From the NCBI RefSeq assembly GCF_025061645.1, contig NZ_JANYMP010000039.1:25596-59736 (forward strand): 34,141 nt of DNA, written 5' to 3'. This document shows positions 4,419-24,246 of this stretch, one piece after another (the first letter of the stretch is position 1; the number at the start of each line of letters is the position of its first letter). The notes under the pieces are model-generated. The model worked only from the letters and a program-made list of their open reading frames with translations. It ran no database searches and was not told where the DNA came from. Source of the DNA: Umezawaea endophytica. Its GTDB lineage: Bacteria; Actinomycetota; Actinomycetes; Mycobacteriales; Pseudonocardiaceae. The translations under genes and the position numbers were made by a program.

Positions 4419-4726
4419 CCGAAGCCAAGTTCGACGACCTGGTGCACGCCCCCACCCGGCTGTCCATCGTCTCGCTGCTGGCCGCGGCGGAGTGGGCGGA
4501 CTTCAAGTTCCTCCGCGACACCGTCGGCATGTCGGACTCGGCGCTGTCCAAGCAGCTCACCACGCTGGAGGACGCGGGGTACGTGGAGATCCGCAAGCAC
4601 TTCGTCGGCAAGAGGCCGCGCACCTCGGCGAGGCTCACGGACGCGGGCCGCACCGCGTTCGACGGGCACGTCGCCGCGCTCCAGGAGATCGTGGCGCGCG
4701 CGGGCGCCACCGTGCTGCCGGGCTAG
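4415..4726 (+). CDS. Small winged-helix transcriptional regulator
   Basis: A 103-residue single-domain DNA-binding protein of the MarR/ArsR-like winged-helix class (HTH_34-like). The pattern is clear: V-H-A-P-T-R-L-S-I-V-S-L-L at residues 10-22, a recognition region M-S-D-S-A-L-S-K-Q-L-T-T-L-E-D-A-G-Y-V near 39-57, then the wing with G-K-R-P-R-T. No effector domain is present. The start is the ATG in the ATGA overlap with the membrane-protein gene; the longer open frame upstream is shadow sequence. Its stop TAG overlaps the stop of the convergent kinase gene within a single CTAG. It likely represses its own two-gene operon through the palindromes at 3866-3891. Confidence 0.87.
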   Translation: MTEAKFDDLVHAPTRLSIVSLLAAAEWADFKFLRDTVGMSDSALSKQLTTLEDAGYVEIRKHFVGKRPRTSARLTDAGRTAFDGHVAALQEIVARAGATVLPG

Positions 4727-5619
4727 TCCTCCAGCACGCGGCCGACGGCCCGCGCGTACATGCGGTCCGGGCTGGGAGTGGTCGACGGGGTCAGGAAACC
4801 GGGCAGCATCGGCAGGTCCACGGCGAACGGCAGCAGCCCCTCGAACAACGTCGTCGCGTCGGCGGGCCTGCGCTCCGGGTCCTTCTCCAGCATGTCCTGC
4901 AACAACTCGTCCAGCGCCACCGGGATCCTCGGCACGGACGACGGCCGCTGCTTCACCTGCTTGTCGAACACCGTGTACGCCGTGTCGCCGGTGAAGAGCT
5001 GCCTGCCCGTCAGCATCTCGTGCAGCACGCAGCCCAGCGCGTACAGGTCGCTGCGCGGTTCGGCGTTGCCGCGCTGGATCTGCTCCGGCGCCATGTACGC
5101 CGGGGTGCCGAGCATCTGGCCCCACCGGGTGAACTGGGCGACGTCGGACTCCCGCAGCACCGCCAGGCCGAAGTCCAGCACCTTCACGCTGCCGTCCGGG
5201 CACAGCATCAGGTTCGTCGGCTTCAGGTCGCGGTGGCAGATCGACAGGCTGTGCGCGGCGGCCAGCACGGCGCACGCCTGCGCGGCGATCGACGCGGCCC
5301 ACGGCACCGGCAGCGGGCCGTGCTCGCCGACCAGGTCGGCGACCGTGACACCGTCGATGAACTGCATCACCTGGTACATGCGGTACTCGAAGACGCCGAA
5401 GTCGTAGAGGACCGGCGCGCCCGCGTGCTCCAGCTTCGCCAGGATGCGGGCCTCGCGGGTGAAGCGGTGCTCCATCTCCTCGTCGCGCCTGCCGGGTAGC
5501 TGCAGGAACTTCACCGCGACGCGGCGGTCCAGGTGGCGGTCGTACCCGCCGTGCACCGCGCCCATCCCACCCTGGCCGAGCGGCAGGTCGTCCAGCTCGT
5601 ACCTGTCGGCGATGAGCAT
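4723..5619 (-). CDS. Soluble Hanks-type Ser/Thr protein kinase
   Basis: A 298-residue kinase consisting of the catalytic domain and a short tail; no transmembrane helix or PASTA repeats, unlike PknB. Motifs are complete: glycine loop G-Q-G-G-M-G (15-20), lysine in V-A-V-K (K37), catalytic loop H-R-D-L-K-P-T-N (129-136, D131), D-F-G (149-151) and A-P-E (177-179), so it should be active. The ATG at 5619 has a GGGAGG site just upstream and lies 17 bases after the stop of the DNA methylase, so the two genes form an operon. A PP2C phosphatase gene is divergent from that operon. I infer that the kinase acts on the methylase or its neighbours; nothing in the sequence proves it. Confidence 0.93.
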   Translation of the reverse strand: MLIADRYELDDLPLGQGGMGAVHGGYDRHLDRRVAVKFLQLPGRRDEEMEHRFTREARILAKLEHAGAPVLYDFGVFEYRMYQVMQFIDGVTVADLVGEHGPLPVPWAASIAAQACAVLAAAHSLSICHRDLKPTNLMLCPDGSVKVLDFGLAVLRESDVAQFTRWGQMLGTPAYMAPEQIQRGNAEPRSDLYALGCVLHEMLTGRQLFTGDTAYTVFDKQVKQRPSSVPRIPVALDELLQDMLEKDPERRPADATTLFEGLLPFAVDLPMLPGFLTPSTTPSPDRMYARAVGRVLED

Positions 5620-5636
5620 CCGGCCTCCCGTCCGCG

Positions 5637-7379
5637 CTAGTCCCCCGGTCGGAGGTGACCGTCCATCAGGCCGCCGAAGCCTAGCCGGATCACGCTTTCC
5701 CCCAGCGCCGCAGTCTCGCGCAGCGCGTCCTCCAGTGTGCCCAACTGCCGGAACGCGCGTCCGTAGGCCTGCTGTTCGGCCAGCGGCAGCCGCGGCACCT
5801 GCGTGCGGCGGGCGTCGACCCGGCTGGAACCCTGGTGGGCCCGCGACGCGGCCGCGCGCAGCACGCCCGCGAGGAAGTACGGGTCGAGCCTGGTCGGGTC
5901 GACCCGGTAGACCGCCAGGTACGGCCCCAGGATCGCCTGGTAGCCGACGACCCGCGCGGTGCCCATCGGCGACGCCACCACGTCACCCGGCTCCACCTCG
6001 ACCAGGTCCGGGTCGGGTGCCGTGCGCTCCGACGGCTCCACGCCCGCCGCCAGGTCGTCCGCGGTCAGCACCGGCAGTTCGCCGTTGCCGGTGGTGAGCT
6101 TTGCGCCCGCGTGCTTCATCGTCAGCAGCCCGGCCTTGGCCAGTTCGCCGATCGTCGTCATGGGCGGCGCCTGCTGCGACGCCTTGTCCAGCTCCGGCGT
6201 CGGCAGCACCGTCTTCGTCAACGCCGTGAGCGCCTCGACGAACGCCAGGTGCGTGTCCTCGCCACCGCTGCGCCGCAACGACTGCACGGCGGGGCTCAGG
6301 TCGACGTCCTCGTCCAGCAGGTCCACGATCGGCACGGAGTGGCCGCCCGCGTGGTCGGTCTGGAACGCCGCCCACCTGCGGTCCACAGTGGACAGGTCGT
6401 CGACCTCGGTCAGCAGCACGTGCGACGGCGTGCGGTCACCGGCGTCGGGACGGCGGAGCAGCCACAGGTCCGGCCCGGCGGGCAGCGTCACGATCGCCCG
6501 GAGCGCCCCGGCGCGCAGCAGGTTCGCCCTGATCCGGCGCCCCGGCCGTCGGCTGGCCGCCGCCGACGGCATCAGGATCGCCACCAGGCCACCGGGTTTG
6601 GCGTGGCTCAGGCAGTGCTGCACCCAGGCCAGCTCCGACTCGCCGCGCGGCGGCAGCCCGTACTCCCAGCGCGCGTCGCCCGCCAGCTCCTCGTAACCCC
6701 AGGAGCGTTCGGTGAACGGCGGGTCGCACACGACCGCGTCGGCCAGCTCGCCCGCGAAGCCGTCCTGCCGCAGCGCGTCCCCGACGCTGATCTCGCCGGG
6801 CTGTGAGCGAAGTCGCAACCGGTGCGACGCGATGGTCGCGGTGGTGTCGTCGATCTCCTGCCCGAGCACCCGCGCGGCGGGCGTGTCCACGAGCATCGTG
6901 CCCAGGCCGCACGCCGGGTCGTACAGCGTGCCGCCATCGGGCCTGGTCAGCCGCACCAGCAGGGCCGCCACGTCCGCGGGTGTCGCGTCGAGCTGGCGGG
7001 AGTGCGCCTCCAGGTAGCGCGCGCAGAGGAACTCGAACGCCTCCAGGGCACCGCGTTCGGCCGCCAGGGGTGCCAGCGTGCCGCCGTCCTCCGACAGCAG
7101 GTCCGCGCCCGCGCCCGCCACCCGGTCGCCGAGGCCCAGGTCGTCGCCCGCTCCGCGCAGCCACTGCCAGGCCCGCTCCACGGGGGACACGTCGACGCGC
7201 TTCCCGTTGCGCCGCAACCAGTCCTCGACCTCGTTGAGGGAGAACAGCGGGCTGGACGCGGTGCCGCCGACGGGCTGGGGGAAGTCCTCGTGCCGTCGGC
7301 GCCAGTTGCTCACGGCAGCACGCCCCACGTCGACGAGGCGGGCGATGTCGCCCGCGCTCACGGTGGCGTCCTGGTCCAT
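5637..7379 (-). CDS. Single-chain N6-adenine DNA methylase with HTH and specificity-like C-terminus
   Basis: About 580 residues in three parts. Residues about 8-57 form a helix-turn-helix (V-D-V-G-R-A-A-V-S-N-W-R-R-R followed by F-P-x-P-V and E-V-E-D-W-L), as in AlpA/MerR-like DNA readers. Residues about 110-380 are an HsdM-type methylase with motif I D-P-A-C-G-L-G-T (154-161; usual form G-S-G) and catalytic motif IV D-P-P-F (219-222). Residues about 395-560 resemble an HsdS target-recognition half: G-D-V-V, L-D-P-Y-F-L-A-G-V-L-R, V-P-R-L-P-L-A-E-Q-Q-A-Y. No restriction subunit is nearby. I chose ATG 7379 over an in-frame GTG at 7388; neither has a good ribosome site, and a TAGTGT hexamer seven bases upstream of the ATG suggests a leaderless message. 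It may be an orphan epigenetic regulator or part of a defence module. Confidence 0.9.
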   Translation of the reverse strand: MDQDATVSAGDIARLVDVGRAAVSNWRRRHEDFPQPVGGTASSPLFSLNEVEDWLRRNGKRVDVSPVERAWQWLRGAGDDLGLGDRVAGAGADLLSEDGGTLAPLAAERGALEAFEFLCARYLEAHSRQLDATPADVAALLVRLTRPDGGTLYDPACGLGTMLVDTPAARVLGQEIDDTTATIASHRLRLRSQPGEISVGDALRQDGFAGELADAVVCDPPFTERSWGYEELAGDARWEYGLPPRGESELAWVQHCLSHAKPGGLVAILMPSAAASRRPGRRIRANLLRAGALRAIVTLPAGPDLWLLRRPDAGDRTPSHVLLTEVDDLSTVDRRWAAFQTDHAGGHSVPIVDLLDEDVDLSPAVQSLRRSGGEDTHLAFVEALTALTKTVLPTPELDKASQQAPPMTTIGELAKAGLLTMKHAGAKLTTGNGELPVLTADDLAAGVEPSERTAPDPDLVEVEPGDVVASPMGTARVVGYQAILGPYLAVYRVDPTRLDPYFLAGVLRAAASRAHQGSSRVDARRTQVPRLPLAEQQAYGRAFRQLGTLEDALRETAALGESVIRLGFGGLMDGHLRPGD

Positions 7380-7392
7380 GCCATACACACTA

Positions 7393-7428
7393 GTTCACAA
7401 CCGATGCACAGTGGTTCTGCTTGTGAAC
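7393..7428. promoter_or_regulatory. Inverted repeat between DNA methylase and phosphatase genes
   Basis: The 8-bp arms gttcacaa (7393-7400) and ttgtgaac (7421-7428) are perfect inverted copies separated by 20 bases, in the 76-base gap between the divergent methylase and PP2C genes. The position suits a shared operator. The methylase's own N-terminal helix-turn-helix is a candidate binder (inference). Confidence 0.5.
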
Positions 7429-7455
7429 CGAATCAACCAATGTTTCACTGTTGTC

Positions 7456-8208
7456 ATGACGCACAACCGGCTCGCCCACGCCGTTGGCACCCATCCAGGG
7501 CTCCGCCGCGAGCTGAACGAGGATTCCGCCTGCGCCGAGCCGCCGCTGTTCGCCGTCGCCGACGGCATGGGCGGACACGCGTTCGGCGAGATCGCGAGCG
7601 CCACGGCCATCGACGTGCTGGCCCACTACGACGTCAGCGGCGACCCCGTGACCGCGCTGACGGCGATGATGGACGAGGTCGCGCTGCGGCTCACCGACAT
7701 GGCCGAGCAGGACCTGCGGATGCGCGGCATGGGCACCACCCTGACCGCCCTGCTGTGGGTCGACGGCGCCAAGTTCGCCGTCGCGCACATCGGCGACTCC
7801 CGGTGCTACCTCGTCCGGGACGGCGAGATCCAGCAGGTCACGCGGGACCACACGATGGTGCAGGCGCTGGTGGACGAGGGTCGGATGCCCGCCGAGCAGG
7901 CCGCGCTGCACCCGCGCCGGTCGATGCTGATGCGCGCGCTCCAGGCGGGCAACTCGCCCGAGCCGGACGTGTTCCTGCACGAGGCGCAGGTGAACGACCG
8001 GTACCTGCTGTGCTCCGACGGCCTGTCGGACGTCGTGCCGCCCGAGGCGATCCTGGAGGTCCTCGCGGGGACCGAGGACCGCGACGAGGTGGTCGTGAAG
8101 CTGATCGCGCTGGCCAACGAGGCCGGTGGGCCGGACAACATCACCTGCGTGCTGGTGGACGTCGTGAACGACGAGTGGCTGGCCCACTGGAGCGGTCGAC
8201 TGCTCTAG
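7456..8208 (+). CDS. PP2C-family Ser/Thr protein phosphatase
   Basis: A 250-residue soluble metal-dependent phosphatase (PPM/PP2C; PstP/PrpC-like). All core motifs are present: N-E-D-S (21-24), V-A-D-G-M-G-G-H (34-41) with metal-binding Asp, G-M-G-T-T-L, I-G-D-S-R-C-Y-L, T-R-D-H-T-M-V, L-C-S-D-G-L-S-D and G-G-P-D-N-I-T-C near the C-terminus. It should reverse phosphorylation by a Hanks-type kinase. The start is ATG 7456; the open frame extends further left only as shadow of the methylase. It is divergent from the methylase-kinase operon, which makes a dedicated kinase/phosphatase pair likely. Its TAG stop shares a CTAG with the stop of the convergent pentapeptide-repeat gene. Confidence 0.93.
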   Translation: MTHNRLAHAVGTHPGLRRELNEDSACAEPPLFAVADGMGGHAFGEIASATAIDVLAHYDVSGDPVTALTAMMDEVALRLTDMAEQDLRMRGMGTTLTALLWVDGAKFAVAHIGDSRCYLVRDGEIQQVTRDHTMVQALVDEGRMPAEQAALHPRRSMLMRALQAGNSPEPDVFLHEAQVNDRYLLCSDGLSDVVPPEAILEVLAGTEDRDEVVVKLIALANEAGGPDNITCVLVDVVNDEWLAHWSGRLL

Positions 8209-9179
8209 GCCCCCGCCGGGGTCGGTCGGACGTCGGCGTGCTGGACGGGCCACGACGTGGCCTCGTCCACCAGCGCGCCCTCGAGCCTCGCCCCGGTGAG
8301 GTCGGCGTCGCGCAGGTCCGTGCCGCGCAGGTCGGCGCGACGGAGGTCGGCGTCCCGCAGGTCGGCGCCGGACAGGTGCGCGAGGGCCAGGTTGGCGTCC
8401 ACGAAGCTGGTCTCCCGCAGGAAGCTCCCGCGCAGGTCGGCCGACTTCAGGTCGCTGCCGTCCAGCACGGTGCCCTGCATCCACGAGTGGGCGAGGTCGC
8501 TGTGCCGGAGCTGGGTGTTGATCAACCCGCCCTGGTACACCTGCACGCCGCGCAGGTTCACCCTGGACAGGTAGAGCTTCTTGTCGTCCGGGAACTTCCG
8601 GCGGGTGCTCGGCCGGTCGGCGCGGTGGCGCGGGAACGAGATCCGCTGGGCCAGCACCTCCACGGCCGTCTGGATGTCGGGGTGGGCGATGAGCAGCCAC
8701 CGCCGCTCCTCCGGGAGACCGTCGTCGTCCCCGCGCGGTGAGTTGTTGCGGATGAACGCCCCCAGGATGAACTGGACGGTGTCCCGGTCGGCGGGCGAGT
8801 TCACGGCGATGCGCTTGAGCGCGTAGATCCCGCCGATGCGGACGTCGACCTTGTCGCTGCCGATCTGCTCGACGGCCTTGGTGAACCGGTCGGTGAGCTG
8901 GCCCTCCCGGTTGACCTGGACCTGCCACCAAGTGGCCGCGGCGCCGATGACCACCAGCAGGCCTGCGCACATCTGGAGCAGGGCCGAGCGGACGTTGTTC
9001 TGCAACTGCCCCTGCGCCTGCTGGAGCTGGATGCGGGTCTCGGCGTTCGCCACGCCCCGCAGGTCCGCGTCCGTCAGCGACGGGTGGAACAGCGGCGGCA
9101 GGACCTCCAGGCTGGCGACCACGACGAGCGCCAGCAGGATGATCGCCGCGGACACGGCGCGGAACGTTCGACTCGTCAC
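8205..9179 (-). CDS. Membrane-anchored pentapeptide-repeat protein
   Basis: A 324-residue protein with two hydrophobic helices (about residues 9-29 and 66-87), a conserved linker of the type Q-L-T-D-R-F-T-K-A-V-E-Q-I-G followed by R-I-G-G-I-Y-A-L-K-R-I-A (about 93-123), and a C-terminal pentapeptide-repeat helix (about 205-300) with repeats such as A-D-L-R-D, A-D-L-R-R, T-D-L-R-D, A-D-L-T-G. The family is common in actinomycetes and cyanobacteria; function is usually unknown and the linker region is a family hallmark. The repeat domain is probably cytosolic. It starts with GTG 13 bases after the ArsR-type gene on the same strand, so the two may be co-transcribed. It overlaps the phosphatase gene tail to tail by four bases. 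Confidence 0.88.
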   Translation of the reverse strand: MTSRTFRAVSAAIILLALVVVASLEVLPPLFHPSLTDADLRGVANAETRIQLQQAQGQLQNNVRSALLQMCAGLLVVIGAAATWWQVQVNREGQLTDRFTKAVEQIGSDKVDVRIGGIYALKRIAVNSPADRDTVQFILGAFIRNNSPRGDDDGLPEERRWLLIAHPDIQTAVEVLAQRISFPRHRADRPSTRRKFPDDKKLYLSRVNLRGVQVYQGGLINTQLRHSDLAHSWMQGTVLDGSDLKSADLRGSFLRETSFVDANLALAHLSGADLRDADLRRADLRGTDLRDADLTGARLEGALVDEATSWPVQHADVRPTPAGA

Positions 9180-13614: not shown

Positions 13615-15303
13615 ATGTCGCACCACCATCACGATGGCCACGAGCACCACCACCACGAGGTAGAGCCCGTCGAGGGAAGTTGGCAGGACCCGGCGGACGA
13701 CCGCCCCATCGCGGTCGCCCGCCGGAGGTTCCTCGCCGGGCTCGGTGTCGCCGTCGGCGGCGCCGCTCTGGCGAGCGCGGGCGCGGGCGAGGCCGCCGCG
13801 ACGCCGCTGCCGACGAACCGGTGGGGGACGCCGCAGCGCTGGTACGCGGGCGACCACCACATCCACACCCAGTACTCCGGCGACGGCCAGTACACGGTCT
13901 CGCAGCAGGTCGCCAAGGCCCGCGAGCACGGCCTCGACTGGATGGTCATCACCGACCACGGCGGTGTGGCGCACCAGAAGTTCTCCCTCGACCAGGTCAC
14001 GCCGGACATCGAGAAGGCCCGCCGGTCGAACCGCGACGTGCTGGTCTACCAGGGGCTGGAGTGGAACATCCCCGGCGCCGAGCACGCGACCGTGTTCCTG
14101 CCGCCGGACCGCCACACCGTCGACATCCTGCGCGCGTTCGAGGCGGGCTACGACGGGGGCATCCTGTCCACCGCGGTCGCCAACGGCGGCAAGGGGCTCA
14201 TCACCCGCTCCACGTCGGCCGACGGCGAGCCGTACGCGCTGGCCGCGCTGCGGTACCTGGAGTCGCAGGTCCTCAGTGGACGGACCGAGATCGCGCTGAT
14301 GTTCGCCAACCACCCGTCGCGGCGCGGTGTCGACAGCCCGCACGAGCTGCGCGGCTGGCGCGACGCGGCGCCCGGCGTGGCCGTGGGCATGGAGGGCGCG
14401 CCCGGCCACCAGGCCGCGGGCATCTCGAAGGCCTCCGGCGGCCGTGGTGGCGCTCGCGGCTACTACGACTCGTCGCCCGGTGTCGACAGCCACCCCGGCT
14501 ACGCGCCCAGCGCGACCGAGAACCCCTACCGCACCTACGGCGGGTTCGACTGGATGACCGCCAAGGTCGGCGGGCTCTGGGACTCGATGCTGGCCGAGGG
14601 CAGGCCGTGGTGGATCACGTCGACCTCCGACGTGCACCAGGTCTTCAACGACACGCTGACGCCCGGCCCGCAGGACTACGACAAGACCGGCAGCAAGGGC
14701 GCGCCGGTCGACTCCGGCGTGAAGCAGACCGGTTTCGGCGACTTCTTCCCCGGTTTCTACAGCCGGACCGTCGTCGGCTCGCGGTCGCGGTCCTACGTGG
14801 ACGTGATGCGCGGACTCCAGGCGGGCAAGGTGATCGCGGTGCACGGCAGGCTGATCGACGGCCTCGACCTGCGCGTGCGGGCCCTGGGCGAGGGTGACAA
14901 CCAGGGCGTCACGCTGGGCGGGCGCACGTTCGTCAAGCGCGGCGGTTCGGTGGAGGTCACCGTCGAGGTGACCGGCGCGGGCGGCCCCAACTTCGCCGGT
15001 GTGGTGCCGAGGTTGGCCAAGCTCGACCTCATCGCGGGCCCGGTCACCGGGCCCGTCACCGACCGCGACACGCTGTCCGCGCCGGGCACGACCGTGGTGA
15101 AGTCGTTCGAGGTCACCAAGAACCGGTCGAGGTTCACCTACGTCTTCAAGGACGTCCCCGGCCCGTTCTACCTGCGCGTGCGCGGGTCCGACGGCCGGAA
15201 GCTGACGTCCGACGGCGGTCCGGTCATGGACGTCATCGCTGATTCCGACCCGTGGAGCGACCTGTGGTTCTACGCCAACCCGGTGTTCGTGGACGTGATC
15301 TAG
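13615..15303 (+). CDS. Tat-exported PHP/CehA-type metallohydrolase with His-rich leader
   Basis: A 562-residue protein. The first 14 residues hold nine histidines; a twin-arginine signal (A-R-R-R-F-L-A-G-L-G followed by a hydrophobic stretch) lies at about residues 36-63, so the mature protein is exported folded. The PHP metal site begins with G-D-H-H-I-H-T-Q-Y-S-G-D-G (about 81-93), then V-I-T-D-H-G-G and E-W-N-I-P-G-A-E-H-A-T-V-F, as in CehA/McbA carbaryl-hydrolase-like proteins. A late S-T-S-D-V-H completes a multi-metal site, and the C-terminal 150 residues form beta-rich sequence. It is likely an extracytoplasmic phosphoesterase or esterase; the substrate is unknown. The next gene begins at its stop codon. 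Confidence 0.87.
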   Translation: MSHHHHDGHEHHHHEVEPVEGSWQDPADDRPIAVARRRFLAGLGVAVGGAALASAGAGEAAATPLPTNRWGTPQRWYAGDHHIHTQYSGDGQYTVSQQVAKAREHGLDWMVITDHGGVAHQKFSLDQVTPDIEKARRSNRDVLVYQGLEWNIPGAEHATVFLPPDRHTVDILRAFEAGYDGGILSTAVANGGKGLITRSTSADGEPYALAALRYLESQVLSGRTEIALMFANHPSRRGVDSPHELRGWRDAAPGVAVGMEGAPGHQAAGISKASGGRGGARGYYDSSPGVDSHPGYAPSATENPYRTYGGFDWMTAKVGGLWDSMLAEGRPWWITSTSDVHQVFNDTLTPGPQDYDKTGSKGAPVDSGVKQTGFGDFFPGFYSRTVVGSRSRSYVDVMRGLQAGKVIAVHGRLIDGLDLRVRALGEGDNQGVTLGGRTFVKRGGSVEVTVEVTGAGGPNFAGVVPRLAKLDLIAGPVTGPVTDRDTLSAPGTTVVKSFEVTKNRSRFTYVFKDVPGPFYLRVRGSDGRKLTSDGGPVMDVIADSDPWSDLWFYANPVFVDVI

Positions 15304-21339: not shown

Positions 21340-24246
21340 GTGAGACGAGACCCGGCCATCTCCTTCCGCGGCGCCCTCCAGATCCTCGGGCACCACGACC
21401 GACCTTGGCTCGACCGGATGAACGGACTGCTCGGCGGCGTGATCCTCGCGTCCGGCCCGATCCCGGCCGCCGTCGGCGCGCTGTGGGGCTGGGTGGACCA
21501 GAAGAACGAGGCCACCGCCCTGCTCCGGTCGGTGCTGGACGGGGTGTCGGACCGGGTCCGCCCGTCGCACGGGCTGCTGCGGCACGAACTGGTCGTGGCG
21601 GCGCACTCGACGATCGTGCTGACGGCGTTCTTCGAGGCGCTGCGCGAAGGCCTGGGCGACACCTACGACGAAGCGCTGATCACCGACGCCGAGAAGCTGT
21701 CGATCGGCAACGGCGAGTGGCGGTCGACGGCCGAACCGCTGGTGCGGCGGCTGTACACGAGCGACCTCCCGGCGCCGTCCGCCCTGCGCGGGTTCGAGGA
21801 GAACGTCGTGAACGTCCAGCACTGGTGCTCGAAGACGGTGAACGAGGTGCGGAAGTTCCTCGACGGCCTGCACCTGGCCCAGCGCCGGGCGTTCGACCCG
21901 GTGACCGTCGCGCTGACCGGAGCGGCCCGCTACCGGTCGCACTACCTGGAGCTGGCGGCGAAGGTGCCCGAGTTCGCCCTGTGGGCGGATCTCGGCGAAC
22001 ACGCCGCGACGCGGTCGGCGCTCGCCGGGCTGGAGGGCCTGCTGTCACGGGCGGCGGTGCCCGCACGCGACCTCCGGGAGGTCGTCCGCCGCACCAACCA
22101 CGCGGTGCTGGGGCAACCGGTGATCGACGTCGGCGCCGACGGCTACGGGACCGGCACGGTCTTCCCCGCGGTGGAGGACATCTTCGTCACGCCCCGGTTC
22201 CGGGTGGCCGAGGCCGGGCCCCAGGCGAACCTCGCGGGTGAACGGTGGTGGTCCGGCCGCGGGGTGCACCACGACCTGGACCTGGTGCTGGCCAGGCACT
22301 TCAGCACCGACCAGTCGACCCGGTTGCCGCTCCTGCTGCTGGGCCACCCAGGAGCCGGGAAGTCGTTGCTGGTCAAGGTGCTGGCCGCGCGCTTGCCGGA
22401 GGACGGGTACACGGTCGTCCGGGTGCCGCTGCGGGCCGTCGGCGCCAACGACGTCATCGCGGAGCAGGTCCAGCAGGCACTCGACCTGGCCACCCACCGC
22501 CGGGTCCGCTGGTCCGAGCTGGCCGACCAGTGCGCGGACGTCATCCGGGTCGTGCTGCTGGACGGCCTGGACGAACTGCTCCAGGCGACCACCCACGACC
22601 GGGCCGGGTACCTCCAGGAGGTCGCCGAGTTCCAGCGCGTGGAGGCCGTGATGGGCAGGCCCGTCGCCGTCGTCGTCACCTCCCGGACCCTGGTGGTCGA
22701 CCGGGTGGCGGTGCGGGCGGGAACGCCCGTGGTGAAGTTGGAGGAGTTCGACGAGAGGCAGGTCCGGAAGTGGGTGGGGGTGTGGAACGGCCACAACCGG
22801 CCGATGCCCGCCGCGTTCGCACTGGGCTACCCGGACCTGGCGTCGCAGCCGCTGTTGCTGCTGATGCTCGCGCTGTACCACGCGGAGTCGGCGGGGGAGG
22901 TCGACCCGACGTTGTCCAAGGCCGAGTTGTACGAGCGGCTGTTCGACACCTACGGCCGCCGTGAGACGACCAAGATCGCCGGACGGGTGCTGCACGGCCG
23001 CGAAGGCGAGGCAGCGCTGGACGAGCAGCTCCGCAGGCTCGCCACGGCCGCGCTCGGCATGATCAACCGCGGTCGCCAGGACATCACCGAGGCGGACCTG
23101 TCCAGCGACCTGGCGGCACTCGGTGAGCCTGCCACCGGTGACCGGGTGCTCGGCGAGTTCTTCTTCGTGCACGTCGCCGAAGCGCGGGCCGGGACCTTGC
23201 GGCGGTGCTACGAGTTCCTGCACGCCACCTTCGGCGAGTACCTGGTTGCCACGCGGGTGGTGGAGGTGCTCCGGGACGTCGCGGAAGGGGTGTACGGGCG
23301 CAGGCGTGAGCACGACCCGGAGGACGACCTGCTGTTCGCGTTGCTGAGCCACCAGCCGCTGGCGATCCGGTGGCCAGTGCTGGACTTCATCGGCCAACGC
23401 CTCCGGGCCTTGGACCCGGACGAACTCGACCGGGTGGTCCGGACCCTCGACGTGCTGATCCGGTCGTACCGGAGCCGGAAGCCGTCACGGGACTTCGGCG
23501 AGTACCGGCCGCTCCCGCAGGACGCCGTTCGGGCGCTCGCGGCCTACTCGGCCAACCTGGTGCTGCTGCGGCTGTGGGCCGAGCGCCGGGTGCCCGTCGA
23601 GGCGTTGTGGCCGGAGAACCCGATGGGCCAGTGGCGGTCCACGCTGAGCCTGTGGGAAGCGGGACTGGACGCACAGGGTTTCCAGGCGATGATCGTCGCC
23701 ATCAGCCACTCCGGGGGAGCCCTGCACGCCTACACCGAGACGTTCATCGTGAACGTGCCCCCGGTGGAGATCCAGCGGTTGAGGATCCGCGGTGAGCTGG
23801 AACTGGAGGAGCGACTGCGCACCGGGCTCGCCATCCACGACAACCTGCACTACCTGACCGACCACGGTCCGGGTGCGGTGCAGGCCAAGGATTGGCTGCG
23901 CTACACCGAAGGATGGTTGATGGCGGCCCTGCTGCGCGGGGGTTGGCCCGATGCGCAACTCCTGCCCGCTCCCAAGGAGGTTTCGGTCAGGTCGCGGCGC
24001 GCGGTGTCGGCCTCCGCGCACGAGCTGATCGAGAAGAACTGGCGCGGGTGGGGAGACGCGTTTCTCGTGAAGTACCTCGAGTGGTTGGTGAACCTGTCGG
24101 ACTTCAGGGACAACAGGGTGTTGAACCGGATCGTCGTACAGATCGGCCGGGTAGTCCCGGACTGGCTTTCGCGCGCCTTGGAAGAGGGTGCGGACTGGTC
24201 GTACGAAGACGAAGGACAGTCGTTGCCGTTCAACCACAGGCCCTGA
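21340..24246 (+). CDS. NACHT STAND NTPase with NNH7-like N-terminal domain
   Basis: A 968-residue protein. The helical N-terminus (about 5-230) resembles the NACHT N-terminal helical domain 7 class: G-A-L-Q-I-L-G, L-L-G-G-V-I-L-A, W-G-W-V-D-Q-K-N-E-A and A-A-H-S-T-I-V-L-T-A-F-F-E-A-L. The NACHT core follows: Walker A G-H-P-G-A-G-K-S (335-342), Walker B V-V-L-L-D-G-L-D-E-L (D408/D411), then V-V-T-S-R-T, and winged-helix/helical arm regions including Y-E-F-L-H-A-T-F-G-E-Y. The C-terminal 350 residues are helical with no repeat I recognise. Such STAND ATPases act as oligomerising sensors, several in phage defence. GTG start; divergent ArsR-type gene; the 3' end overlaps the convergent mutarotase-fold gene by 17 bases. 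Confidence 0.88.
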   Translation: MRRDPAISFRGALQILGHHDRPWLDRMNGLLGGVILASGPIPAAVGALWGWVDQKNEATALLRSVLDGVSDRVRPSHGLLRHELVVAAHSTIVLTAFFEALREGLGDTYDEALITDAEKLSIGNGEWRSTAEPLVRRLYTSDLPAPSALRGFEENVVNVQHWCSKTVNEVRKFLDGLHLAQRRAFDPVTVALTGAARYRSHYLELAAKVPEFALWADLGEHAATRSALAGLEGLLSRAAVPARDLREVVRRTNHAVLGQPVIDVGADGYGTGTVFPAVEDIFVTPRFRVAEAGPQANLAGERWWSGRGVHHDLDLVLARHFSTDQSTRLPLLLLGHPGAGKSLLVKVLAARLPEDGYTVVRVPLRAVGANDVIAEQVQQALDLATHRRVRWSELADQCADVIRVVLLDGLDELLQATTHDRAGYLQEVAEFQRVEAVMGRPVAVVVTSRTLVVDRVAVRAGTPVVKLEEFDERQVRKWVGVWNGHNRPMPAAFALGYPDLASQPLLLLMLALYHAESAGEVDPTLSKAELYERLFDTYGRRETTKIAGRVLHGREGEAALDEQLRRLATAALGMINRGRQDITEADLSSDLAALGEPATGDRVLGEFFFVHVAEARAGTLRRCYEFLHATFGEYLVATRVVEVLRDVAEGVYGRRREHDPEDDLLFALLSHQPLAIRWPVLDFIGQRLRALDPDELDRVVRTLDVLIRSYRSRKPSRDFGEYRPLPQDAVRALAAYSANLVLLRLWAERRVPVEALWPENPMGQWRSTLSLWEAGLDAQGFQAMIVAISHSGGALHAYTETFIVNVPPVEIQRLRIRGELELEERLRTGLAIHDNLHYLTDHGPGAVQAKDWLRYTEGWLMAALLRGGWPDAQLLPAPKEVSVRSRRAVSASAHELIEKNWRGWGDAFLVKYLEWLVNLSDFRDNRVLNRIVVQIGRVVPDWLSRALEEGADWSYEDEGQSLPFNHRP

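Follow-up and report, generated by a model that had tools for sequence, protein, structure and literature searches.

In actinobacteria, a serine/threonine (Ser/Thr) kinase and an N6-adenine DNA methylase occur together in the phage growth limitation (Pgl)/type 2 bacteriophage exclusion (BREX) locus, the core of which is given as PglZ, BrxC/PglY and PglX (PMC12839542). A methylase acting as a regulator is exemplified by M.SsoII, which binds a quasi-palindrome lying between genes, repressing its own gene and stimulating that of the cognate restriction enzyme (PMC3978073). Here we describe a three-gene locus, hereafter the triad, in a 34,141-nucleotide stretch of Umezawaea endophytica DNA (the window; contig NZ_JANYMP010000039.1, family Pseudonocardiaceae), in which a kinase, a methylase carrying a helix-turn-helix (HTH) and a divergent PP2C-type phosphatase are arranged around an operator-like inverted repeat. 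We propose, with somewhat better than even chances of being right, that the triad is a conserved regulatory module, namely an autoregulated, phosphorylation-controlled DNA-binding methylase switch. A search limited to the open-access literature found no description of a methylase-kinase-PP2C triad; the inverted repeat upstream of the family methylases, the degradation of the catalytic motif in some lineages and the HsdR-linked relatives reported below are new here. The three genes are:

4723-5619, minus strand: soluble PknB-like Ser/Thr kinase, 298 aa (Pkinase PF00069, Pfam E 2.3e-45).
5637-7388, minus strand: HTH, HsdM-like N6-adenine methylase, single HsdS-like target recognition domain (TRD) and C-terminal helix in one protein, 583 aa (N6_Mtase PF02384, Pfam E 1.8e-27).
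7456-8208, plus strand: divergent PP2C-type Ser/Thr phosphatase, 250 aa (PF00481, E 9.1e-13).

The initial annotation, made from the sequence alone, had placed a complete Hanks kinase 17 bases downstream of an adenine-N6 methylase and a complete PP2C divergent from them, all of which was borne out (the methylase-kinase gap is 5620-5636). Its comparison with Pgl holds for the combination of kinase and methylase and goes no further: the window kinase reached 44.9 bits where the PglW model asks for 990 and, at 298 aa, contrasts with the large PglW kinase, and no window protein matched the PglX model at E 0.01. As the annotation had also stated, PglZ, PglY/BrxC, helicase and nuclease families gave no Pfam match among 31 open reading frames (ORFs) picked from the 139 listed for the window (E cut-offs 0.01, 1e-5, 1e-5 and 0.001). 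The methylation-associated defence system (MADS) likewise has methylase and kinase parts, and weak matches to MAD1 and MAD2 and a moderate one to MAD6 were obtained, but MAD2 reached only 22.4 of 720 bits and MAD6 126.7 of 460 (NCBIfam cut-offs). The gene content of MADS differs from that of the triad, which consists of three genes only and includes a PP2C. As the defining features tested for Pgl/BREX and MADS were not found, membership in either was rejected. The kinase also matched one PADLOC model of PD-T4-6, a single-gene anti-phage kinase, at 308 bits; this indication is unspecific, the label being broad and carried by 22 of the 25 PADLOC models among the kinase matches listed.

Likeness to type I restriction-modification (RM) systems was found in the HsdM-like catalytic domain with its S-adenosylmethionine (SAM) motif and in a TRD plus helix resembling half an HsdS, whereas, compared with type I RM and PacII M1M2S, the M and S parts of the triad protein are fused and an HTH is added. 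No HsdR was detected at triad loci by tblastn with the HsdR of a related locus (L107) across the loci fetched, whose flanks ranged from 1.5 to 8 kb (as much as 8 kb at named loci and as little as 1.5 kb at some of the others); in this tested feature the triad as it stands departs from type I RM. M.SsoII and M.Ecl18kI (PMC3978073) resemble the triad protein in having an N-terminal HTH joined to a methylase and in acting within a circuit that includes their own gene; they differ in being C5-cytosine methylases paired with a restriction enzyme, whereas the triad has an N6-adenine methylase, a PP2C and a kinase, and no restriction gene was found. The triad methylase has an HTH ahead of the methylase domain and an inverted repeat in its promoter region, and by analogy, autoregulation in the triad would be expected to resemble that of M.SsoII, with kinase and PP2C as an additional phosphorylation pair. 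The PknB/PstP pair is matched in that the kinase domain is closest to PknB among solved structures and the PP2C is Stp1-like, but the triad kinase lacks a PASTA part and sits with a DNA methylase. CamA, a solitary adenine methylase with a role in sporulation, appears among the structure matches; to our knowledge it has no HTH, kinase or PP2C partners.

Evidence that the three genes belong together came from comparison of 80 loci chosen by methylase similarity alone (the best 80 of 353, from named genomes, with flanks up to 8 kb), assigned by NCBI taxonomy to Streptosporangiaceae (64), Pseudonocardiaceae (10), Thermomonosporaceae (5) and Nocardiaceae (1). In 70 of them the methylase was followed, on its own strand, by a kinase of at least 65% identity, and a PP2C was present too, divergent in 69 and on the same strand in one. 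Four others had a divergent PP2C without an adjacent kinase, four a same-strand PP2C without a kinase, one a more distant kinase type only and one neither partner. The median gap between methylase and kinase was 38.5 bases. It might be argued that an ordinary solitary methylase merely happens to stand beside common actinobacterial kinase and phosphatase genes, as kinases are frequent, with 34 Pkinase matches in the 11.0-Mb host genome. From this number, and about one gene per kb, we estimate the chance of a kinase in a given downstream slot at well under 1%; because a downstream kinase was present in 71 of the 80 relatives (of the same type in 70), the association is not attributable to chance. 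Order and adjacency are furthermore kept across two orders, no other cluster of neighbouring genes spans both convincingly, and a PP2C is present in every row of the methylase clade described below, so that chance neighbourhood is in effect refuted and retains next to no probability. The larger neighbour clusters of triad loci were confined to a single genus or joined Nonomuraea with Thermoactinospora or with one doubtful locus, and those reaching further include frames antisense to triad genes; as even of the triad genes the clustering retrieved just 49-54 of 70 copies, neighbours can be missed. The doubtful locus (L048, Nocardia aurea) lies on an 8.6-kb contig with a Nonomuraea-type intergenic region and a neighbour cluster otherwise composed entirely of Nonomuraea (13 of 14), and may represent contamination of that assembly; it was included in the 80 loci and the 113 clade rows and excluded from the 94-locus distance test.

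Searches of whole genomes gave a concordant picture. Among 150 genomes of the host's own family, a triad-type methylase was present in 35, and 32 of these had a kinase of at least 70% identity, in every case adjacent to the methylase by coordinates (one being a partial match); no such kinase was found in the other 115 genomes, 11 of which have kinases of 54-60%. Across the class, 78 of 394 genomes scanned had a methylase relative (E 1e-40 or better), and the 29 best new loci included 10 triads, all from one family (code f19). On a FastTree phylogeny of 178 family methylases, which carried long-branch warnings and excluded 11 loci fetched twice and one triad with a split hit (L128), the PP2C-linked methylases formed a single clade (113 rows, local support 100), in which six sequence pairs are identical, leaving 107 distinct sequences, and L170, with a split hit, was counted by hand. 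A PP2C was present in 113/113 of these rows and an adjacent kinase in 104/113, and the PP2C link thus appears, on the methylase tree, to have arisen once. The initial annotation had drawn the link between the enzymes from gene order only and made it depend on co-occurrence beyond this strain, which was clearly found.

A genus-wide view was obtained for g128, judged to be Nonomuraea because the methylase of one member (G463) equals that of Nonomuraea maritima (L101). Here the kinase was single-copy in all 54 genomes (E 1e-120), and the methylase was detected in 43 at E 1e-145 and, once the region was fetched, next to the kinase in 10 of the remaining 11, giving 53/54; some of these methylase regions end at contig ends. 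By coordinates, methylase and kinase were adjacent in 52 genomes. PglZ, the sole defence gene compared in this way, occurred in 9 of the 54 genomes (8 over the cut-off). Because the kinase is present in every genome while PglZ is patchy, the module looks core and vertically inherited within at least one genus, which sets it apart from accessory islands of the Pgl/BREX kind. Pairwise distances also co-varied between methylase and kinase (r 0.82; maximum of 500 permutations 0.19) and between methylase and PP2C (r 0.93, not permuted).

A second line of evidence came from the DNA between the divergent genes, where three elements were recognized:

7421-7437, minus strand: operator-like inverted repeat GTTGATTCGGTTCACAA, between the divergent genes, a family-wide footprint.
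7421-7449, plus strand: probable PP2C promoter, with -35 box TTGTGA (7421-7426) inside the operator, a 17-bp spacer and -10 box TTCACT (7444-7449).
7387-7398, minus strand: third half-site GTGAAC (7393-7398) abutting the -10-like TAGTGT of the methylase (7387-7392).

Defined as half-sites GTGAAC or GTTGAC around a 3-bp spacer with at most two mismatches, the repeat preceded 130 of 141 family methylases, a set from which nine loci obtained from two sources had been taken out. It was there at 104 of 104 loci with a PP2C and 26 of 37 without; the consensus was derived from the same loci that were counted. The pattern occurred in 1.3% of shuffles, which preserved base composition only, and in 0 of 141 windows 400-555 bp upstream, a position that falls in PP2C coding sequence at triad loci. 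A second set, sharing some strains with the first, showed the repeat in 38 of 49 fetches, or 31 of 39 places after ten duplicate places were dropped; its independent part, 14 loci of another family (f21; L188-L201) not used for the consensus, had it in 13. Three loci without the repeat (L107, L161 and L162) begin directly behind an upstream gene. In some Pseudonocardiaceae the repeat is a perfect 19-bp palindrome, TTGTGAACTGAGTTCACAA, and distant methylases without an adjacent PP2C, many of them also without a kinase, have the same repeat type, for example TGTGAACTCTGTCAACA. Because the repeat occurs without kinase or PP2C, and because the recognition helix of the methylase HTH is conserved while the TRD is more divergent, the methylase's own HTH is the likely binder. 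Only a single perfect match to the window's repeat pattern exists in its own genome, which speaks for a dedicated site. A wide operator regulon was rejected for now, with one perfect site and two at one mismatch; sites within two mismatches numbered 47, versus 26 for the reversed pattern.

The promoter-like geometry of this region was also conserved. TTCACAA was present in 98 of 99 divergent loci, within a strongly conserved PP2C-methylase intergenic stretch, and TTGTGA likewise in 98/99; the hexamer 17 bp further on read TTTACT in 70, TTCACT in 12, TCTACT in 7 and otherwise in 9, and the PP2C start codon followed this -10 hexamer by 6-7 nt in 96/98 loci (6 nt in the window). On the methylase side, a half-site abutted TAnnnT in 45 of the 99 loci, with the ATG mostly 7-8 nt on. 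Translation of the methylase probably begins at the ATG at 7379, which is residue 4 of the listed ORF, and the methylase mRNA looks leaderless from the sequence, since the -10-like TAGTGT lies directly upstream of this ATG.

The AlphaFold model of the methylase (mean predicted local distance difference test, pLDDT, 88) supports the HTH and specificity-like region that the initial annotation had noted: HTH helices are predicted at residues 9-15, 20-29 and 48-57 (numbered from the ATG at 7379), with weak PADLOC matches (MAD1, PDC-M06B) and no Pfam match at E 0.01, and the specificity-like region is read as a single HsdS-like TRD (about 407-529) followed by a long C-terminal helix (533-572). Its closest solved structures are PacII M1M2S (7vru, the best Foldseek match) and type I M proteins. 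The recognition helix GRAAVSNWRRR was kept in every family group, and the SAM motif DP(A/S)(C/A)GxG in 95/95 triads (these counts include one locus with a split kinase, L018/G009). In the window kinase the G-loop, VAVK, HRDLKPTN, DFG and APE motifs are present, and no PASTA or TPR part was found in its 298 aa; V/I-A-V/I-K was retained in 95/95 triad kinases, HRD in 94/95 (the exception being the split kinase of L018), and D149-F150-G151 was invariant in 27 aligned kinases. PknB was its best solved structural relative. The Stp1-like PP2C scored 218 bits with NCBIfam NF033484, slightly below the cut-off of 230, and its motifs DG(M/I)GG, GDS and DHT were present in 95/95 triads.

The catalytic motif of the methylase presents a more varied picture. 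The accepted active form of motif IV is (N/D/S)PP(Y/F/W). Within the 113-row clade the motif read DPPF in 95, DPPV in 5, NPPF in 4, EPPF in 3, DPPW in 3, HPPF in 2 and EPPT in 1, such that 102 rows keep a form that may be active and 11 carry EPPF, EPPT, HPPF or DPPV instead of (N/D)PP(F/W). These 11 fall into five tree groups, the forks among four of which are unresolved, and by parsimony the first residue changed 19 times over the whole tree. The degraded lineages retain the SAM motif, the HTH and the partners, which suggests from sequence that DNA binding and the link with the partners can persist after methyl transfer is lost. Among the 32 rows without either partner, the motif read NPPF in 10, DPPF in 7, EPPF in 4, HPPF in 2 and other forms in six, with 3 unread; because kinase-less relatives are degraded too, degradation is not tied to the kinase. 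The term "epigenetic" in the initial annotation thus calls for caution, given the degraded motif of some lineages.

Relatives outside the clade point to where the triad may have come from. Locus L107 (4115-11265) is a type I RM-like operon of HsdR, a YgjP-like metallopeptidase, an HTH-M-S fusion methylase and a TPR-bearing Ser/Thr kinase; L161 and L162 resemble it by their gene ends, their start being cut so that only the HsdR end lies in the fetched stretch. All three keep NPPF, and this type is a possible kinase-linked restriction system. Because these sister methylase-kinase pairs lie directly behind HsdR and a YgjP-like peptidase, the ancestry of the triad is probably RM. A distinct arrangement was seen in the f21 loci L188-L190 and L193-L201 (probably Streptomyces), where methylase, a small membrane-type protein (without a Pfam hit in L194) and kinase all face one direction; their operator, present in 11/12, is mostly like CTGTGAACCGAGTCAACAC, and motif IV reads HPP(F/Y) in 12/12 tree rows. 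Such observations leave room for a tentative reading, possible but with clearly less than even chances, in which the "methylase" is becoming a SAM-binding, phosphorylation-gated transcription switch: a former RM protein that retained HTH, SAM motif and TRD, acquired a dedicated kinase and a PP2C, and lost catalysis more than once. As part of that reading, the module would be core in at least one Streptosporangiales genus and widespread in Pseudonocardiaceae. Against it stand the degraded motifs of kinase-less relatives and the 102 possibly active rows of the clade.

The RM-like relatives, together with the PADLOC matches of the kinase (PD-T4-6) and the methylase (MTase_I), also bear on whether the triad is itself an anti-phage module of Pgl/BREX-, MADS- or RM-like type, in which the kinase would sense infection and the methylase mark self. 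We consider this quite unlikely, as neither a nuclease or helicase gene nor HsdR turned up next to the triad, the kinase is single-copy throughout a genus in which PglZ is sporadic, the triad's flanks in the window hold mainly carbohydrate and other metabolic genes by Pfam, and shared flanking genes are largely genus-specific. In addition, TRD identity never fell below 0.59 in 352 pairs with catalytic identity of at least 80%, though it reached 0.11 at 60-65%; RM-style TRD swapping was not seen between these close relatives. Between the two possibilities offered by the initial annotation, a switch or a defence module, the switch stays our best reading, and the defence half gains little from a locus beside which no effector gene was found.

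In the mechanism we propose, the HTH of the methylase binds the inverted repeat between the divergent promoters; bound there, the protein would limit its own transcript and that of the putatively co-transcribed kinase, and would compete with polymerase at the PP2C -35 box. The dedicated soluble kinase and PP2C would together determine whether a common substrate is phosphorylated; their near-exclusive co-occurrence leads us to infer that this is most likely the methylase. Phosphorylation would then decide whether the methylase occupies its operator or instead methylates or binds DNA at other sites. In DPPF lineages, genome methylation would be the output.

It is also conceivable that kinase and PP2C form a general signalling pair with substrates elsewhere, the methylase being only their transcriptional controller through the shared operator. 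Consistent with this, the kinase is much better conserved than the other two proteins and the PP2C has diverged as much as the methylase (mean pairwise distance over 94 triads 0.217 for kinase, 0.388 for methylase and 0.414 for PP2C), and the operator is embedded in the probable PP2C -35 box. Moreover, at ten loci (L208-L217), kinases 52-58% identical to the triad kinase and with long frames (over 530 aa) had no family methylase within 6 kb (10/10 loci fetched). We nevertheless judge it rather improbable, since in the 150 family genomes the kinase of at least 70% identity never occurred without the methylase clade.

Several observations weigh against the phosphorylation-controlled switch that we prefer. 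In one locus (L091/G573) the kinase lies about 7 kb from the methylase, in another genome (G541) the kinase is present and no methylase was found in the fetched stretch, both of which would suit a separate signalling pair, and 9 of the 113 clade rows lack an adjacent kinase. The repeat was not found at 11 of the 37 loci without PP2C or in 11 of the 49 second-set fetches, and the shared element could be partly a conserved promoter instead of an operator. Sampling leans to Streptosporangiaceae, which supply 64 of the 80 loci, plain vertical descent would likewise be expected to produce co-varying trees, and the predicted kinase model is of moderate quality (pLDDT 73). Furthermore, no kinase-specific phosphosite in the methylase is evident from conservation: the best conserved Ser/Thr residues (S27, T43, T136 and T412) are kept also in most kinase-less relatives, and only S50, S68, S130 and S522 are clade-typical Ser. 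Prediction of phosphosites by conservation was set aside as weak, the top residues being shared in this way.

Additional features were recorded in the window and among relatives. The window methylase is 91% identical to that of Umezawaea tangerina (L039). A pentapeptide-repeat protein (8205-9179, minus strand) is convergent with the PP2C and overlaps its stop by 4 bases; it has no match near the triad in U. tangerina. At 21340-24246 (plus strand) lies a 968-aa protein with a NACHT N-terminal helical domain NNH7 (E 1.7e-60) and an AAA domain, a STAND-type NTPase without a PADLOC match at 1e-10; STAND-type NTPases are linked to bacterial immunity. This gene and that of a PHP-domain protein (13615-15303) are both at least 5 kb from the triad. 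The host genome also encodes a second HTH-methylase (L137, contig C55), 36% identical and with NPPF, which has a kinase convergent with it at a distance of 40 bases and, with one mismatch, an operator-like repeat. Tandem methylases were seen at twelve loci (L136, L138, L140, L144, L145, L148 and L150-L155), where a distant HTH-methylase has a second N6-methylase match about 0.4-0.6 kb off in the same direction, 27-30% identical over the catalytic part.

If the proposed switch is correct, the triad would connect Ser/Thr phosphorylation directly and reversibly with the modification or binding of DNA, and would do so in bacteria noted for their complex development and their antibiotics. Signal-dependent switching of a solitary DNA methylase would then have a dedicated solution in three genes, and the relatives of the triad would mark a traceable route from an RM system to a core regulator.

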